Origin: Acidobacteriota bacterium
GTDB lineage: Bacteria > Acidobacteriota > Terriglobia > Acidiferrales > UBA7541
DNA length: 64,000 bases
NCBI GenBank assembly: GCA_003223245.1
Contig: QHYI01000124.1
Span: 1-64,000 of the forward strand
Direction: 5' to 3'
Position 1 is the stretch's first letter, and each line of letters starts with the position of its first letter. The notes under the pieces are model-generated. The model worked only from the letters and a program-made list of their open reading frames with translations, was not told the origin of the DNA and ran no database searches. This document shows positions 9,382 to 18,202 of this stretch, one piece after another. Made by a program: the position numbers and the translations under genes.

Positions 9382-10779
9382 ATGGCTACATTGGCGCGAC
9401 AACTTCGCTTGAGGGATTACTTTGCCTTGGCTTTTGGCACGATGGTTGGAGTCGGGTGGTTGGTGCTGATGGACGACTGGCTCGGGCGCGGCGGCCCGCT
9501 CGGCGCCATGCTGGGATTTTTGCTAGGCGGGGTTTTGCTGCTGCCCGTGGGTTATGTGTACGGGGAATGGGTGAAACGGCTGCCGGATGCGGCGGGCGAA
9601 GCAGCGTACACGGCTCAAGTGTTTCCGCCGATTGTGAGTTTCTTCACGGGCTGGATGATGCTGCTGGCGTACTTCATCGTGTGTCCGTGGGAGGCCGTCG
9701 CGCTAGGAAAGTTAGCGGCGTATGTATTTCCGTCGCTGAACTCGATGGAGCTGTACCGTGTGGCGGGGCAGCCGGTGTTCTTGCCACGGCTGGCGCTGGG
9801 CATAGCGCTCACGTTATTTCTCGCGATGTTGAACTATCGCGGCATTCGATTAAGCGCGAGTTTTCAGAATTGGACAGCGGCAACGGTGCTGCTCGTGTTC
9901 GTAACGTTGCTGTGGATTAGCGGCGCCCATGGAAAGCCTGCTAATTTCGAGCCCAGATTTCGCGATGCTCCGTTGGTTTCGATTTTGCTGACACTGCAGA
10001 TCGTGCCGTACTTCTTGACGGGATTTGAGTCCGTACCGAAAGTCGCGGAGGAGTCGCACACGGGATTTCGGTCGACGGAATTCTTTCGCGCAATTGTGAC
10101 GGCGCTGCTCGTGGGTGCGGGATTCTACGTTTTGGCGGTGGCTGCGGTGGCCTATGTGGCGCCGTGGCAAGGCTTGCTCGGGAAGCGCTTCGCAACCGCC
10201 ATTGCGTTTGAGCAGGCGCTAGGTGCGCGCTGGCCGGTCAGCCTCATTTTGGTCATGGCCATGTTCGGGCTGTTCCAATGTTTCAACGGGAATTTTGTGG
10301 CTTCGACCCGCATGCTTTTCGCCTTCGGAAGGCGACGGACGATTCCAGCGCGTTTCAGCGCCGTACATCAGGAATTTCTAACGCCGTCGGTTGCTGTGCT
10401 TGGCATCGCGGTAGGAACGCTTGGCGCTCAGTTGTTGGGTGATGCGCTGCTCGTGCCGGTGACGGAAGTGGGGTCGATGGCCTCAGCGCTAGGCTGGTTC
10501 GCGGCGTGCGTTTCGTTCTGGATGGTCGAAAAGCGCGCAGGAATGAGAACCGTAACCGCGGTGGGAATTCTTGTGGCCCTGATGCTCTTCCTAATGAAGG
10601 TTTTGCCAGTCTTTCCCGGACATTTTTCACCTGCAGAATGGATTGCGTTTGGAATCTGGGTGCTGTTGGGGGCGGCCTTACATTGTTCCTCAAGCTTAAT
10701 GGGGCGGCTTAGGTCGGGCGGTCAAACTAGTTCCCAGGTGGTTACGGGCGGGCCCAATCCGTCCAGGCAAGACCCTTGA
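9382..10779 (+). CDS. APC-superfamily amino acid permease
   Basis: 465 residues with about twelve hydrophobic segments. The N-terminal segment RLRDYFALAFGTMVGVGW corresponds to the unwound first helix motif (GxxxGxG-like) of APC transporters. The family imports amino acids or polyamines with protons or sodium across the inner membrane; the substrate is not predictable here. GGAGG lies at 9374-9378, only three bases before the ATG. It is divergent from the BamA-like gene and convergent with vapC. Confidence 0.85.
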   Translation: MATLARQLRLRDYFALAFGTMVGVGWLVLMDDWLGRGGPLGAMLGFLLGGVLLLPVGYVYGEWVKRLPDAAGEAAYTAQVFPPIVSFFTGWMMLLAYFIVCPWEAVALGKLAAYVFPSLNSMELYRVAGQPVFLPRLALGIALTLFLAMLNYRGIRLSASFQNWTAATVLLVFVTLLWISGAHGKPANFEPRFRDAPLVSILLTLQIVPYFLTGFESVPKVAEESHTGFRSTEFFRAIVTALLVGAGFYVLAVAAVAYVAPWQGLLGKRFATAIAFEQALGARWPVSLILVMAMFGLFQCFNGNFVASTRMLFAFGRRRTIPARFSAVHQEFLTPSVAVLGIAVGTLGAQLLGDALLVPVTEVGSMASALGWFAACVSFWMVEKRAGMRTVTAVGILVALMLFLMKVLPVFPGHFSPAEWIAFGIWVLLGAALHCSSSLMGRLRSGGQTSSQVVTGGPNPSRQDP

Positions 10780-11155
10780 CGCGATGGAATTCTCGGACGT
10801 TCGAGGTGACCAAGGTCATGCCATGCCGCAGCGCCTGCCCGGCAATCAATAGATCATAGCTGCCAATGGGCTTCCGCGCCTTTTCGAGTTTCGCCCTCCT
10901 AGAGCCTGCACTTCGCGCGTCCTCTTCCTCGAACGAGATAATGCCGCTCGCTCCGGCCAAGAAAGCATCCACAAGTTTGGCGTTGTCTTCCGGAGAAGCG
11001 CTTTTTGCCGCCACGTACCACAGTTCGAAAGATGCAATGCTGGACACGTAGACTCGCGCTCCCCCACGCATCGCTTCGCTAATCCGCTTGCGGATGAGCG
11101 GTGTCCGGTTCTTGATGGCGTCAACGCAGGCGCTTGTATCTAGCAGATAGTCCAT
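10742..11155 (-). CDS. vapC: PIN-domain ribonuclease toxin, VapC family
   Basis: 137 residues from ATG 11155, which overlaps the antitoxin stop by one base (TGATG), the usual coupling in vapBC. PIN acidic residues are visible: Asp6 in YLLDTSACVD, Glu in ASFELWYVA and Asp in GSYDLLIAGQA. The fourth position reads TSNVREF, with Asn where Asp is frequent, which is tolerated in many VapCs. VapC toxins cleave specific RNAs (often tRNA) and are neutralised by VapB. Its 3' end overlaps the 3' end of the convergent permease gene. Confidence 0.9.
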   Translation of the reverse strand: MDYLLDTSACVDAIKNRTPLIRKRISEAMRGGARVYVSSIASFELWYVAAKSASPEDNAKLVDAFLAGASGIISFEEEDARSAGSRRAKLEKARKPIGSYDLLIAGQALRHGMTLVTSNVREFHRVKGLAWTDWARP

Positions 11156-11400
11156 CAAAAAATCTTCCCTCGAGGGGGCTTTGGTTGTCTTCGTCCCCCC
11201 GCGAAGAACGAGTCATCCTTCCGGAGACGATCCAGTTCGGCAAACCAAGCCTCCGGATCGGTTGGCATAGGCTCGAGAAGCACGCCTTTTCCCATGCGGC
11301 GGATTCGCACGCGATCTCCTTCGAAACGAAATTCACGGGGCAACCGCACCGCTTGGCTGCGGCCGTTTTTGAAGAGCTTGGCCACCGTTCTTTTGGGCAT
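11155..11400 (-). CDS. vapB: VapB antitoxin, AbrB/SpoVT-type DNA-binding protein
   Basis: 81 residues. The N-terminus [21 protein letters not shown] is the swapped-hairpin AbrB/MazE-type domain; the C-terminal tail ([18 protein letters not shown]) is the segment that typically wraps VapC. AGGAGG at 11409-11414 sits eight bases before the ATG. The operator-like palindrome just upstream suggests autoregulation by the VapBC complex. Confidence 0.9.
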
Positions 11401-11509: not shown

Positions 11510-12322
11510 ATGATTCCCTTCCTCCATCTGGGGCCGCTCACAATTCCGACATTTGGGTTGATGGTCGCGACGGGCTTGCTCGTTGCAGCGTATGTTTTGC
11601 AAGCAGATTTTGACCGCCGGCGCGAAGGCTTTCTGAAACGCGGCTACTTGAAACCAAGTAAACAGGCAAGCCATCACGACGAAGGATTTTTGATCATCGG
11701 TATCGCAGGAATCTGCGGACTAGTGGGCGCGCGGCTGTATCACGTGCTGGAGAATCCGCGGGATTTGATGGCCGATCCGTCGTTGCTGATCAGCCGGTTT
11801 GGATTTGCGTGGTTCGGAGGATTTCTCGGCGGGTTTGTAGCGCTGATTTTTCTGGCGAGGCATTATGGAATTCCCGTGCTGGAATTCATGGATTTGTGCT
11901 CGGCCGCGGCGGCGGTGGGCTACGCGATTGGGCGAATTGGCTGCTTGCTCTCCGGCGATGGCGATTACGGTGTCCCCACGAAGCTGCCCTGGGGTATGAG
12001 CTTCCCGAATGGTGTGGTTCCGACGACCGAGCGTGTTCATCCAACGCCGATCTACGAGTTTCTGATCTGGATGCTCATTGCCGTGATTTTGTGGGGCATG
12101 GGGAAAAAAGCCTTGAATGGAGAAGCGCCGGGCAAGGTCTTTTCCAACTATTTGATTCTCACCGGCCTTGCGCGGTTCCTAATCGAATTCATCCGAATCA
12201 ACCCGAAGTCATTCTTCGGCATGTCGAATGCCCAGGCGGCCAGCCTCGCCTCCATCATTGTAGGAATTATTTTATTAATGCGAATCAGGCCGCCGCAGAG
12301 CAGGCAAGTGGAATCGCACTAA
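11510..12322 (+). CDS. lgt: Prolipoprotein diacylglyceryl transferase-like protein (Lgt family)
   Basis: 270 residues from ATG 11510; a GTG at 11474 would add 12 unlikely residues. Seven hydrophobic segments and family landmarks are present: [12 protein letters not shown], the arginine loop [12 protein letters not shown] and RFLIEFIRI. Lgt transfers diacylglyceryl from phosphatidylglycerol to the lipobox cysteine of prolipoproteins at the inner membrane. The signature after GRIG reads [10 protein letters not shown] rather than the common NFxNxE or CFxxGCCYG forms, so activity is likely but not certain. Its stop overlaps the acnA stop by 4 bp, tail to tail. Confidence 0.78.
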
Positions 12323-14985
12323 ACCATTTGGCGCAGGACGTACTGCAAGATGCCGCCATGGCGGTAATACGAAACTTCTTCGGGCGTGTCCACGCGCGCA
12401 ATGGCAGAAAAGGCCTTCGCCTTTCCGTCGTCGGACTTGGCATGAATGGTAATGACTTTTTTCGGCGATAGCGAAGCGACGCCTTCGGTGGAGAAAATCT
12501 CGTGGCCGGACAATCCCAGCGATTCGCGGTTCTCGCCCGGCTTAAATTCGAGCGGAAGGACCCCCATGCCGACAAGATTGCTGCGATGGATGCGCTCGTA
12601 GCTTTCCGCAAGGACCGCGCGCACCCCGAGCAATCGCGTCCCTTTGGCGGCCCAATCGCGCGAGGAGCCGGAGCCGTACTCCTTGCCGGCAATCACGACC
12701 AGTGGGACGCCTGCTTCGCGGTATTTCACGGCCGCATCGTAGATGGACATCTTTTCGCCGCCGGGCTGGAAGAGCGTCCAGCCGCCTTCGGTGCCGGGAG
12801 CCAGCTGGTTGCGCAGACGGATGTTCGCAAATGTGCCGCGCGTCATCACTTCGTGATTGCCCCGGCGCGCGCCATAGGAATTGAACTCATGCGGCTTGAC
12901 GCCGTTGGCGATCAAATATTTCCCCGCAGGCGAATCGACGGGAATCGAGCCTGCAGGAGAAATGTGATCGGTGGTGACGCTGTCGCCGAGAAGCGCCAGG
13001 ACGCGCGCGCCGCGAACATCGGTGAGCGGAGGCGGAGCCTTCGGCATGTTGTCGAAGTAGGGCGCCATTTTGATGTAGGTCGACTTGGGATCCCACTTGT
13101 ACGTGTCGCCCTTGGGAATGGACATGGACTTCCAATGCGCATCGCCTTCGAACACTTCTCCGTATTCCTTGCTGAACTGCGACGCGGAAACCGCTGTGCG
13201 GACGGTGCTTTCGATTTCTTGAGGCGATGGCCAGATGTCTTTCAGATAGACCGGTTTGCCAGCGGTGTCGTTGCCGAGCGGCTCGGTGGTGATGTCCATA
13301 TCCATGCGTCCCGCAAGGGCATAAGCAACCACGAGCGGCGGTGATGCGAGATAATTCGCGCGCACGAGCGGATGAATACGACCCTCGAAGTTGCGGTTCC
13401 CGCTCAGCACCGCGACGGCGACCAGATTGTTTTCCTTGATGGCCGCCCCAATCGGTTCGGGCAACGGGCCGCTGTTGCCGATGCACGTGGTGCAACCGTA
13501 GCCAACGAGTTGGAAATTCAATTCATTTAGATACGGTGTGAGACCGGCAGCTTGCAAGTAATCCGTGACCACTTTCGAGCCAGGCGCAAGGCTGGTCTTA
13601 ACCCAGGGTTTGACGTGCAAACCGCGCTCAACTGCCTTCTTGGCAAGCAGGCCTGCGCCGATCATGAGCGAAGGATTTGAAGTGTTCGTGCAACTCGTGA
13701 TGGCCGCGATGACCACAGAGCCATTCGATAGATCAAATGCGTCGCCATTGTTACGAACCGGAACGCGCTTTGCCGGCGCGCCTTCCACGACCTTCGTGAA
13801 CGACGACTTTGCTTGGCGCAGGGGTACACGATCCTGCGGGCGCTTGGGGCCTGCCACGGCGGGCTCCACACTGCCAAGGTCCAGCTCGAGCGTGTCGTTG
13901 AACAGCGGCGCAGGCGTTTCGTCGGCGCGGAAAAGCCCTTGTTCTTTGCAGTATGCTTCGACCAAAGCGATGTGTTCCGATTGACGGCCCGTGAATCGCA
14001 AGTAGACCAGTGTCTCCGAATCAACGGGGAAGAAGCCCATGGTCGCGCCATATTCGGGCGCCATGTTGGCGATGGTCGCGCGGTCGGGGACGCTCAAACT
14101 GGAGAGCCCGGAGCCATAGAATTCGACGAATTTTCCGACGACGCCTTTCTTGCGCAACATTTCGGTAACCGTCAGTACCAGGTCCGTGGCGGTGGCACCC
14201 TCGCGCAAACGGCCGTGCAGACGGAAACCGACGACTTCCGGAATGAGCATCGAAGAAGGTTGGCCGAGCATAGCGGCTTCCGCTTCAATACCACCGACGC
14301 CCCAGCCGAAAACGCCGAGCGCATTCACCATCGTCGTGTGCGAGTCCGTGCCCACCAGGGAATCGGGATAGGCTTCCCAGCGGTTGCCGTGCGGCATGGC
14401 GCAAACGACGCGCGCCAGATATTCGAGATTCACCTGATGGCAGATACCCGTGTCCGGCGGAACAACTTTGAAATTCTGGAAAGCGGTTTGTCCCCAGCGC
14501 AGAAAAGCGTAGCGCTCCACGTTGCGCTGAAATTCCAGCTCGGCATTCAAGGCGAAGGCGTTGACGTTGCCGAAATTGTCCACTTGGACGGAGTGGTCGA
14601 TGACTAACTCGGCGGGAAACAGCGGGTTGATGCGCTTGGCGTCGCCACCCATTTTCACAAAGGCCTCGCGCATGGTGGCCAGATCCACGATCGCGGGCAC
14701 TCCGGTAAAGTCCTGAAGCAGAACGCGCGCGGGCATGAAAGCAATCTCTTTTTCTGCGGCGCCCGCTTGCCAGCGCGCCAGGGCTTGAATATCCTCCGCG
14801 TGGACAAACCGGCCATCCTCGAAGCGAAGCAGATTCTCAAGAAGAATCCGGAGGGAGAAGGGAAGTTTGGCAAGATTCGTGACGCCCTGTTTTTCGAGGA
14901 GTTCCAGGCGATGCACTTCGAAGGTTTGGGCGCCGACGTTGAGTTTGTCGCGCGTGCGGAAGGAGTTTCCCGCGTTGATGGCCAT
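12319..14985 (-). CDS. acnA: Aconitate hydratase A
   Basis: 888 residues, the standard AcnA/IRP-type length. The 4Fe-4S cysteines are seen in SCTNTSNPS and [12 protein letters not shown], and the swivel domain motif [13 protein letters not shown] is present near the C-terminus. It isomerises citrate to isocitrate in the TCA cycle. It is a single gene, divergent from the radical SAM gene across 84 bp. Confidence 0.96.
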
Positions 14986-15069: not shown

Positions 15070-16536
15070 GTGAATATTGTTTTGATATCGACGTACGAGC
15101 TGGGGCGCCAGCCCTTTGGGGTTGCGTCGCCGGCGGCATGGTTGCGAAAGGGGGGGTATCGTGTGGCCTCGCTCGACCTGTCGCGGCAGCCGCTCGATGA
15201 AGCCGCGGTCCGCGAAGCCGGGCTCATCGCGATGTATTTACCGATGCATACGGCGACGCGGTTGGCGACGCAACTCATTCCCGCACTTCGCAAGCTGAAT
15301 CCTACGGCGCATTTTTGCTGCTATGGCTTGTATGCACCGATGAACACGGATTATCTGCGCACATTGGGAGTCTCTACGATTCTGGGCGGCGAGTTTGAAC
15401 AGGGGCTGGCGCATTTGGCGGAGCGCCTCGGAGGGAATGGGAACGGCAATGGCGCTTTAAGCAGGTCTCAGCCCGAGCAGCAGCCTGAGCCCCTGATCTC
15501 GCTGGCTCGACAGAAATTCGTTCTGCCAGACCGGCAGGGACTTGCACCTCTCGCGAAGTACGCCCGCGTAATTCTTCCTTCGGGCGAACATCGCGTGGCG
15601 GGTTACACCGAAGCGAGCCGAGGGTGCAAGCATTTGTGCCGGCACTGCCCGATCGTGCCCGTCTACCAAGGTGTGTTCCGCGTAGTGGATCAAGAAGTTG
15701 TGCTCCAAGACATTCGTCAGCAGATCGCGGCTGGAGCGCAGCACATTACCTTCGGCGATCCCGATTTTTTCAACGGCATCGGCCACGCCATGGCCATTGT
15801 TGAAGCACTGCATCAAGAATTTCCCGCGCTTACTTACGACGTGACCATCAAGATCGAGCATTTGCTCAAACACAAGCAGCACCTTGCCAGGCTGCGCGAT
15901 ACGGGCTGCCTGTTTGTTACCAGTGCGGTGGAATCGGTGGACGACGAGCTGCTGTGCCGCCTCGCCAAAGGCCACACCCGCGCCGATTTTCTGGAAGTGA
16001 ACCGCATCTTTCGCGAGTTGGGCATGGTTTTGCACCCGACGTTTGTGCCCTTCACGCCCTGGACGACGCTGGAAACCTATTTGTACCTGCTGCGTGTTTT
16101 GCGCGAAAACGATTTGGTCGAAAATCTCGCGCCGGTCCAACTCGCTATCCGGTTGCTGATTCCTGCTGGCTCCCGATTGTTGGAGCTCGAAGAAGTGCGG
16201 CATCTCATCGGCGCGTTTGATCCTTCCGCGCTGGTTTATCCCTGGCGGAATCCCGACCCCCGTGTGGATGCTCTTGCCGAAGAGTTGGAAGCGACCGTCG
16301 CCATTTGCGAAAAACTCAGGCTCCCGCGGCGAGCCATCTTCGAGCGCATCTGGAAAGCCGCGCACCAAGCCGCAGGGGTGCACGCGAAGTTCTCCGCGCA
16401 GCCGATTCTCGCGGACCGCGCAACCATCCCGTACCTCAATGAGCCCTGGTACTGTTGAGCCGAGCCGACGGGGGACCAGTTGGCCCCCTTCGCTAAGGCC
16501 AAAGAATCTTTGCCACAGACGGAGTCATTCGTTTGA
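15070..16536 (+). CDS. CUAEP-tail radical SAM selenoprotein (UGA at 16456-16458 read as Sec)
   Basis: 488 residues if the in-frame UGA at 16456-16458 is decoded as selenocysteine 463. GTG 15070 is chosen because it begins the conserved-looking STYELGRQPFG segment. Residues 1-130 resemble a cobalamin-binding-type Rossmann fold without its His motif. The radical SAM cluster is C186-C190-C193 (GCKHLCRHCP). Conceptual translation ends EPWYC-UGA, then AEP, giving Cys-Sec-Ala-Glu-Pro. From memory, this is the defining tail of the CUAEP/CCAEP-tail radical SAM (seleno)protein family. Read-through adds 25 residues and stops at 16534-16536, overlapping the next gene's start. A hairpin 11 bases after the UGA matches bacterial SECIS geometry. 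If the UGA is a stop, the protein has 462 residues. The reaction is unknown. Confidence 0.85.
16470..16488 (+). promoter_or_regulatory. SECIS-like hairpin downstream of the Sec UGA
   Basis: The segment GGGGGACCAGTTGGCCCCC can fold as GGGGG/CCCCC plus CC/GG, with one bulged A and the loop AGTT. The stem base lies 11 nt after the UGA, and the loop G (16479) lies within the distance range described for bacterial SECIS elements. SelB would bind such an element to deliver Sec-tRNA. Confidence 0.65.
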
Positions 16537-17867
16537 ATCGAGAGTCCTTGTCATCGAAAGCGAATAACACGCCCAAGCGTTTGCTGCTCTTCACCGCGAA
16601 ACTGGGCTATCAGACGCGGAGTTTTGAAGATGCCGCACGCAAGCTGGACGTGCAACTTGTTTACGTCACGGATCGTTGTGAGCGGCTGGAAGATCCTTGG
16701 GGAGACTATGCCGTACCTGTTCATTTCGAATCTCCCGAGAAGGCTGCGCATGCGGTGGCAGAAAAACTGGGAGGCCAGGAAGTCGCGGGAGTTTTGGCTT
16801 TGGGTGATCGGCCCGCAGCAGCTGCCGCGTACACGGCACGCGCTCTTGGGATATCGTACAACCATCCAGCTGCCCTCGAGGCCTGCCGCAGCAAGTTGCG
16901 AATGCGTGAAGTGTTTCGTGATGCCGGGCTGCGCGTCCCCTGGTTTCGGAGTTTTCCGGTAACACCGGCTCCTGACCCTGCGCTTGCCGGCATTTCGTTT
17001 CCCTGTGTGCTGAAGCCGCTATCGCTTTCCGCCAGCCAGGGCGTGATGCGCGCCAATAATCGCAAAGAATTTCTAGCTGCGGCTGAGCGTCTTCGCCGGC
17101 TGCTGGAATCGGCGGAGATTCGCGCGACGCGCGAGCCAAATCTCGATCAGATGATTGTGGAAGGTTATATTCCTGGCACGGAGGTTGCCGTTGAAGGACT
17201 TCTCACCGACGGCGCTTTGCGAATCCTGGCGATTTTCGATAAGCCCGATCCCCTCGAAGGTCCGTATTTCGAAGAGACCGTCTACATCGTCCCGTCCCGG
17301 CTTCCGGAAGAAACCCAGCGCCAAATTAAAAAGTGCGTGAATGATGCAACCCGTGCGCTGGGCCTGACCCACGGACCCATTCACGGGGAATTTCGCATCA
17401 ACGAAGAAGGAGTATGGCCCATCGAACTTGCGGCGCGCCCCATTGGCGGTCTTTGCGCGCGAGCGCTCCGGTTTCGGGCGAGCGCTGCGCAGGAAGAGAT
17501 TGGCCTCGAAGAATTGCTGCTTCGCCACGCGCTCAGGATGCCCGGCAGCGATGCGCCTCGCGAAGCGCAAGCCTCAGGAGTCATGATGATTCCCATACCG
17601 CAGAGCGGCATTTTGGAGAGCGTTTCTGGAGTCGAGGCGGCTCGCGCCACGCACCGCGTCACCGAGCTGACCATCACCGCGAGGCTGCACGATTACATTG
17701 CCGCCTGGCCGGAAGGTTCGAGCTATTTGGGATTCCTCTTCGCGAAGGGAAGTACCGCAGAAGAAGTGGAGCTCGCCATCCGCGAGGCGCATCGAAAATT
17801 GCGTTTCACCATCAGCCCACGCCTGCCGGTCGAGCATCCGGTGACGCACCGGTTGCCGGTTAATTAG
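16533..17867 (+). CDS. ATP-grasp ligase-like protein paired with the CUAEP radical SAM protein
   Basis: 444 residues. The central ATP-grasp fold shows the nucleotide-binding lysine region [32 protein letters not shown] and the metal-binding segment [23 protein letters not shown]. It resembles carboxylase/amino-acid-ligase type enzymes that join a carboxylate to an amine via an acyl phosphate. The start is TTG 16533: GGAG at 16521-16524 is spaced eight bases, and the TTG overlaps the extended radical SAM stop as TTGA, indicating translational coupling. The C-terminal 150 residues resemble the LAL-type C-terminal domain. The substrate is unknown; the pairing suggests joint small-molecule or peptide modification. 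Confidence 0.82.
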
Positions 17868-18202
17868 CCCTTGGCCTTGGGCGGAACGTATCCTTCCGGC
17901 AGTTTCGCGCCTTCCCCGAAGAAAAACTGCTCCATCTGCTCCCCCATGATCTTTTGCGAGTTGGGATCCAGCGGATTCAAGCGGTACTCGTTCATGATCA
18001 TCTTCGAGTATTCGAGCCACAGCTTCCATGCGTCTTTCGAAACGCTTTCATAGACGCGTTTTCCCAACTCTCCTTGCCACGGGATGCGATCCAACCCCGG
18101 CAATTCCTTGCCGAGCTTGACGCATTTCACCATGCGCGTTCCCGGCTTCACCGGTTCGCTCTGTGCCGGCTCCGGCTTCGGATCGCAGGATTCGTTGGCC
18201 AT
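17864..18202 (-). CDS. YggX-like Fe(II)-trafficking / oxidative damage protection protein
   Basis: 112 residues. Residues about 24-100 match the YggX pattern: [19 protein letters not shown], then [19 protein letters not shown] and a C-terminal [20 protein letters not shown]. YggX helps protect Fe-S proteins from oxidation in enterics. Here a roughly 23-residue Pro/Glu-rich N-terminal extension precedes the domain. Its stop overlaps that of the ATP-grasp gene by 4 bp, tail to tail. Confidence 0.85.

Follow-up and report, generated by a model that had tools for sequence, protein, structure and literature searches.

The 64,000-nucleotide stretch of contig QHYI01000124.1 from an Acidobacteriota bacterium (positions 1 to 64,000; hereafter the window) carries on its forward strand a gene for a CUAEP-tail radical S-adenosylmethionine (SAM) protein (15070–16536). 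The gene starts at GTG and harbors an in-frame UGA codon (16456–16458) that, on comparison with its relatives, is very probably read as selenocysteine (Sec); this high confidence covers the decoding and the family membership and excludes the chemistry of the enzyme. Sec at the UGA had been proposed in a first-pass annotation of the window and is now strongly supported by family membership, selenium genes, the codon pattern among homologues, a hairpin resembling a Sec insertion sequence (SECIS), and constraint on the tail.

Re-reading of the sequence bears out the frame as it had been described. From GTG 15070 to TGA 16534–16536 it holds a single in-frame UGA, exactly 25 sense codons lie between the two triplets (extension at 16459–16533, forward strand), and the Sec-containing product comprises 488 residues with the UGA codon at position 463. 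The Cys-Sec-Ala-Glu-Pro motif is encoded at 16453–16467 on the forward strand, its cysteine by TGT, and the tail consists of YCUAEP followed by 22 further residues. The frame had also been said to end at the start of the next gene, and TGA 16534–16536 indeed overlaps the TTG start (16533) of a downstream ATP-grasp open reading frame (ORF). An in-frame TTG further upstream (14767) is likewise open and falls inside the divergent aconitase gene (12319–14985), which makes GTG 15070 the sensible start. If annotation stops at the UGA, the family's namesake motif is lost.

The family name given in the first-pass annotation proves correct. The protein matches NF040546, “CUAEP/CCAEP-tail radical SAM (seleno)protein”, at 644.6 bits (cut-off 500) over profile positions 1–467 of 468; the match covers residues 3–472 and therefore spans both sides of the UGA. 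The same model behaves alike elsewhere, giving 653.9 bits for L181, a Sec form in a Methylomirabilis record, and 600.9 bits for L095, which belongs to the window's phylum and has Cys. The Pfam domain Radical_SAM (PF04055) is matched at 46.6 bits (cut-off 29.5), while a B12-binding match stays under its cut-off (17.1 versus 32.1 bits), as does the second-best family, ArsL (NF040542; 276.7 versus 450 bits). As the NCBI model name says “(seleno)protein”, the family is already recognized as such, and judged by its sequence the window protein is one more member of a catalogued selenoprotein family. Nothing was found to set it apart; it shares the CUAEP tail and the placement of Sec or Cys. Its 25-codon tail after Sec recurs in 26 of the 104 Sec forms described below, in contrast to the 11 codons found in 40 of them. 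Among the best 80 of 559 relatives, the nearest proteins (up to 82% identity) come from records titled Acidobacteria bacterium gp2; no phage record matched the window protein at E 1e-8. The word CUAEP occurs in no paper of the open literature searched, subscription papers lying outside that search. A 2026 review of the prokaryotic selenoproteome names other radical SAM selenoproteins, and neither the NF040546 accession nor the tail name appears in its passages (PMC13188914).

Homologues were collected from 396 genomes of the window's phylum, 61 of which carry CUAEP above cut-off, and from named species. The resulting 141 loci comprise 59 fetched CUAEP places (the truncated place of G128 was left out), one below-cut-off fragment, 80 named-species loci (the best 80 of the 559 relatives), and the window. 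Four lack a readable tail: L071, L132, and L160 reach contig ends, and L110 has no recognizable motif. In the 137 readable tails, window included, the codon at the Sec site is TGA (104), TGC (26), or TGT (7), and never TAA or TAG. As their true terminator, the 104 Sec forms use TGA (60), TAA (22), or TAG (22); drawing TGA 104 times from this mix has a probability of about 1.4e-25 when rows are treated as independent, which they are not. Cysteine at the UGA position, which the annotation had proposed to look for, is thus found in 33 tails, and the Cys forms run on into the same motif, as CCAEP.

The nearest Sec relatives (L114–L119 and L122; 68–82% identity) keep both the TGA and the 25-codon tail, and their tails share one end point, marked by TGA, TAA, or TAG. 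In L120 and L121 (65–69% identity), Cys occupies the Sec site and the tail is slightly longer. A FastTree phylogeny of 133 rows (4 of the 137 dropped), from which the Sec position and the tail had been excluded, shows about 10 exchanges between Sec and Cys, at least seven of them forced by well-supported branches. Among 65 aligned homologues, picked from 93 diverse sequences, the pair is invariant: a cysteine followed by Sec or Cys.

The codons past the UGA are, by the ratios of nonsynonymous to synonymous change (pN/pS), under protein-level constraint. In the eight closest Sec forms, pN/pS is 0.26 in the tail, similar to the 0.28 of the 25 codons upstream of the UGA, while the shifted frames reach 1.23 and 2.37. 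When every one of the 26 Sec forms sharing the 25-codon tail length is included, the values are 0.36 for the tail, 0.45 before the UGA, and 1.14 and 2.00 when shifted.

Two kinds of atypical gene occur in the set. L104 and L106 are Sec forms ending five codons past the UGA (C-U-S-E-P-L-stop); a GC-rich inverted repeat, seen by eye, lies past their stop, and their SECIS might therefore sit partly outside the coding sequence. L070 (genome G295) is a CUAEP gene with an extra TAG in frame, 64 codons upstream of its Sec codon, either a decayed copy or a sequencing error.

Directly behind the UGA lies a SECIS-like hairpin (16463–16494, forward strand) with a core stem at 16470–16488 and an apical AGUU loop at 16478–16481. 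The 45 bases from the UGA onward (16456–16500) have a minimum free energy of −23.1 kcal/mol and a z-score of −2.59, with 4 of 200 shuffles as stable. The hairpin is found at the same place across Sec homologues. Its position and loop agree with those of bacterial SECIS elements. At the bases that form the window's loop (23–26 counted from the U of the UGA), 67 of the 104 Sec forms have AGTT and 30 have AGGT. At least six of seven stem pairs, taking the best of three registers, can form in 93 of the 104 Sec forms versus 5 of the 33 Cys forms. Mean folding z-scores in one of six windows, −1.29 for 103 of the 104 Sec rows versus −0.32 for the 33 Cys rows, separate the two groups more weakly than this stem count does. 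In the 40 Sec forms whose tail is 11 codons long, pairing holds in 91.4% of cells versus 78.8% in shuffles, and two-sided changes amount to 38 cells versus 12.1 in shuffles (a level that none of 500 shuffles reached; slid controls gave no more than 14).

The search of the source genome for selenium genes suggested by the annotation was successful. The genome (G000; 6.31 Mb, 95.8% complete) encodes tRNA-Sec (64.4 bits, cut-off 47), which ARAGORN also calls as SeC with anticodon tca, together with SelA (563.8 bits), SelB (356.9 bits), and SelD (345.5 bits), each above its cut-off. Neither of the contrary outcomes anticipated at the outset was seen: sel genes exist in the genome, and the homologues keep the AEP tail. 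Across genomes, at E 1e-65, a threshold picked to keep paralogues out, SelB turns up in 46 of the 49 genomes with a Sec form and in 5 of the 10 with a Cys form (Fisher p 0.0022). Of the 347 genomes outside the Sec-form group, 208 have it (p 7e-7 against the Sec-form genomes). The Sec forms of this 59-genome table include G000 and the below-cut-off G080; the table omits G188, G128, and G001, whose tails were unreadable or not fetched. Of note, the SelD match (L021; G000:C232:53356-54318) itself holds one in-frame TGA, which makes a second selenoprotein likely, SelD probably being one.

Decoding is proposed to proceed as follows. The ribosome would reach UGA463, where the SECIS-like hairpin directly behind would recruit SelB with Sec-tRNA; Sec would then be inserted and translation would go on for 25 codons to the stop that overlaps the ATP-grasp start.

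Several observations weigh against this reading. At the level of whole pairs, those changed on both sides number 4 versus 3.3 in shuffles (210 of 500 as high), and the 40 sequences behind the covariation count exclude the window's own tail class. The 26 Sec forms of that class have a largely invariant stem and fewer exchanges, the clearest being at one pair (GC in 11, CG in 6), and an A–C mismatch occupies one place in 11 of the 26, window included; RNAfold leaves the A of the window's mismatch bulged. In addition, three Sec-form genomes lack a SelB match at E 1e-65, namely G110 (95% complete) and G287 and G080 (75% each).

Two other accounts of the UGA have been weighed. Read-through without Sec, by Trp or Cys suppression or a reassigned code, is conceivable insofar as the Sec reading rests on sequence comparison rather than on a Sec peptide. 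It is very improbable given the complete Sec machinery of the genome, the use of UGA to terminate the window gene itself and 60 of the 104 Sec-form genes, the SECIS-like nature of the hairpin, and the fact that the alternative among orthologues is always Cys (33 of 33). That the UGA is an ordinary stop, the protein ending at Cys462 and the open frame downstream being chance or a leader of the next gene, is scarcely credible: 25 open codons are indeed short, and both alternative frames also stay open for 24 codons, one in 19 and one in 17 of the 26 relatives, yet TAA and TAG are missing from all 137 tails, protein-level constraint is confined to the Sec frame, the hairpin shows compensatory changes, and Cys orthologues carry on with the same AEP tail.

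The radical SAM motif CX3CX2C (C186, C190, and C193; 15625–15648, forward strand) is the expected [4Fe-4S]/SAM site; its three cysteines are invariant in the 65 aligned homologues and common to three ArsL-type proteins. Modeled with AlphaFold, the window protein reaches a mean predicted local distance difference test (pLDDT) score of 92.6 and a predicted template modeling score of 0.91, and only residues 482–488 form a stretch below 50. Its fold resembles those of the solved radical SAM enzymes AprD4 (Z 26.1; 3.6 Å over 399 aligned residues), MgmA (Z 24.6; 3.0 Å, 351), OxsB (Z 24.3; 3.7 Å, 421), and TsrM (Z 22.9; 3.5 Å, 398), at 16–17% identity, a common fold that proves no function.

The partner enzyme is likely the product of the downstream gene, an ATP-grasp protein resembling L-amino acid ligases (16533–17867, forward strand; TTG start). 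It contains the Pfam domains ATP-grasp_4 (125.5 bits) and LAL_C2 (51.9 bits), both above cut-off. A profile of its family finds the L-amino acid ligase BL00235 as the best match in the Protein Data Bank (E 1.7e-71, positions 30–427), followed by BacD (about 3e-31); with both it shares the ATP-grasp family and the LAL_C2 C-terminal domain. To our knowledge, neither BL00235 nor BacD has been paired with a radical SAM enzyme.

An ATP-grasp gene lies within 3.5 kb of CUAEP in 105 of the 141 loci, and in 88 it follows CUAEP on the same strand; 81 of these 105 matches are complete ORFs, and 29 of 30 sequences picked entered the ATP-grasp alignment. At E 1e-70, again a threshold picked to keep paralogues out, the ATP-grasp gene is present in 60 of the 61 CUAEP genomes versus 8 of the 335 others (Fisher p 5.6e-61, a value that genome relatedness inflates), such that CUAEP and ligase occur together in 60 of the 396 sampled genomes of the phylum. 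Three of the eight genomes with only the ATP-grasp gene hold CUAEP fragments. The genomes with fragmentary CUAEP (G367, G213, G080, and G099) are scored as absent in this count; scored as present, the figures become 63 of 65 versus 5 of 331. The association extends to the 20 genomes reached via named loci, 14 of which were chosen for a non-adjacent gene and which include records titled NC10/Methylomirabilota, Tectomicrobia, and Chloroflexi: ATP-grasp is present in 17. A shared function of CUAEP and the ligase is suggested because 60 of 61 matches with varied placement are hard to explain otherwise. Separately, a DUF169 gene sits between the CUAEP and ATP-grasp genes in L147, L163, L171, and L183, and DUF169 lies within 3.5 kb downstream in six loci.

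ArsL is the closest named comparison. In an alignment of five CUAEP and three ArsL-type proteins along their length, the latter share 33–34% identity with the window protein, and ArsL's Cys-Cys, within the terminal RCCLKC, aligns with the Cys-Sec of CUAEP. The two families share the CX3CX2C motif, the aligned pair, and an ATP-grasp gene in the cluster. They differ in that ArsL ends exactly in RCCLKC and lacks some 35 or more residues preceding it, while the window tail runs past CUAEP. By the tests for ArsL itself, the window protein falls short in score (276.7 versus 450 bits) and has no RCCLKC C-terminus, a word that likewise occurs in no paper of the open literature searched. In the ArsL source paper, which does not contain the word selenocysteine, the enzyme is proposed to transfer the 3-amino-3-carboxypropyl group of SAM to arsenite (PMC8552651).

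Sixteen RCCLKC/ArsL plasmid records were listed, and in the four clusters examined (Alicyclobacillus, two Priestia, and Pantoea) an ATP-grasp gene is always present. Of the three such proteins scanned, two have LAL_C2 below cut-off and the Pantoea one has none; they are distant homologues of the CUAEP partner (25% identity, hhalign probability 99.0). All four plasmid arsinothricin-type clusters (L194, L195, L197, and L198) also contain a gene for a GTP-binding protein, of CobW type by Pfam in L194 and recognized from record annotation in the other three. The joint presence of ATP-grasp and GTP-binding genes suggests a peptide form of the organoarsenical; no paper in the open literature searched, with subscription papers outside that search, mentions arsinothricin together with ATP-grasp.

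On this basis, CUAEP may be an ArsL-like enzyme whose product the ligase would build into a peptide. A [4Fe-4S] cluster bound by C186, C190, and C193 would cleave SAM, and the C-terminal Cys-Sec, in the place of the ArsL Cys-Cys, would hold or reduce the attacked atom or an intermediate. Sec in place of Cys would provide a softer and more reducing ligand or nucleophile. The product would be an unusual amino acid, possibly formed by an ArsL-like 3-amino-3-carboxypropyl transfer, and the ATP-grasp ligase would join it to another amino acid. As a whole, this chemistry, from SAM cleavage and the role of the Cys-Sec pair to the unusual amino acid and its ligation, is the favored but still tentative proposal.

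The Cys-Sec pair could instead be a redox shuttle that forms a selenenylsulfide and re-reduces the active site or an intermediate rather than binding the substrate. Thioredoxin reductase has an adjacent Cys-Sec on its C-terminal tail, which the CUAEP terminus resembles, and the tail residues of the model have lower pLDDT than the core (block means 86 and 77 versus 92.6 overall), as in a mobile tail. The invariance of the pair in 65 homologues and its alignment with the ArsL Cys-Cys fit ligand binding equally well, and the shuttle is regarded as somewhat unlikely.

An enzyme acting on arsenite and forming an organoarsenical, as ArsL would, is a more distant prospect and on balance quite unlikely. 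ArsL is the nearest named family, and both are paired with an ATP-grasp gene, but the window protein scores under the ArsL cut-off, and the arsenic-cluster genes tested were not found beside CUAEP. Queries for ArsM, ArsR, ArsN1, AhpD/CMD, MFS, CobW-like, aquaporin, and arsenic-transporter proteins (one protein each, two for CMD) matched none of the 141 loci by tblastn at E 1e-6, with many loci ending at contig edges. When cluster genes of Alicyclobacillus, Priestia, and Pantoea were compared with these loci, only the radical SAM and ATP-grasp genes matched, and an arsenic pathway beside CUAEP was rejected. As none of the arsenic-cluster genes tested matched, an arsenic substrate is unsupported and CUAEP is not filed as an arsenic enzyme.

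The other recurrent neighbors of CUAEP relate to iron and Fe-S clusters. In the window, a YggX/Iron_traffic (Fe2+ trafficking) protein (PF04362, 122.6 bits) is encoded at 17864–18202 on the reverse strand, and aconitase, an Fe-S enzyme, at 12319–14985, also on the reverse strand; for both, a role in the pathway is a candidate one. At least one of YggX, Nfu/NfuA, IscA, Mrp, NadA, and MoaA lies within 3.5 kb in 108 of the 141 loci, a raw count without a background rate. YggX is found in 79 loci, Nfu/NfuA in 29, IscA-like proteins in 11, and the others in 2 to 3 each, with identities backed by Pfam for representatives. The IscA count is not independent of Nfu, as it overlaps a fused Fe-S_biosyn/NifU protein. 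YggX is placed downstream on the opposite strand in 71 loci, co-directionally upstream in 5, and co-directionally downstream in 3; Nfu is upstream in 22 and downstream in 7. Aconitase has one arrangement only, being divergent upstream in all 40 loci that carry it. YggX also lies near the ATP-grasp gene in G121, G073, G054, and G325, where CUAEP is on another contig or missing from the genome. A peptide transporter of the POT family is found upstream in 18 loci. Elsewhere in the window, a putative VapBC-like pair (PIN-domain toxin and AbrB-type antitoxin, named by eye) occupies 10742–11400 on the reverse strand as overlapping ORFs of 138 and 81 amino acids.

The 60-of-61 co-inheritance and the iron genes near 108 of the 141 loci in several gene orders prompt a broader, speculative proposal, which is held to be rather doubtful: CUAEP and the ATP-grasp ligase may form an undescribed selenium-dependent pathway whose small, peptide-like product would serve iron or Fe-S handling, the Cys-Sec pair being the selenium counterpart of the ArsL Cys-Cys. 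The iron/Fe-S link is a lead, not a result.

A number of points count against the proposal and the chemistry on which it builds. Of the 20 genomes searched, three yielded no ATP-grasp partner (Nonomuraea candida and two from NC10), and in the Thermomicrobium record no ATP-grasp gene is annotated up to 6 kb from CUAEP. The alignment of Cys-Sec with Cys-Cys crosses a long stretch absent from ArsL, and for ArsL itself the source paper offers carboxypropyl transfer as a prediction (PMC8552651). The negative searches for arsenic-cluster genes detailed above leave an arsenic substrate unsupported. YggX was rejected as a co-inherited component, being present in 33 of the 61 CUAEP genomes versus 139 of the 335 others (p 0.07), and the iron-gene neighbors could reflect inherited gene order.

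The near-constant ligase partner nonetheless points to a selenium-dependent pathway. The almost one-to-one pairing of CUAEP with the ligase is the new element, by which a family known from its tail would acquire a testable, two-enzyme function.

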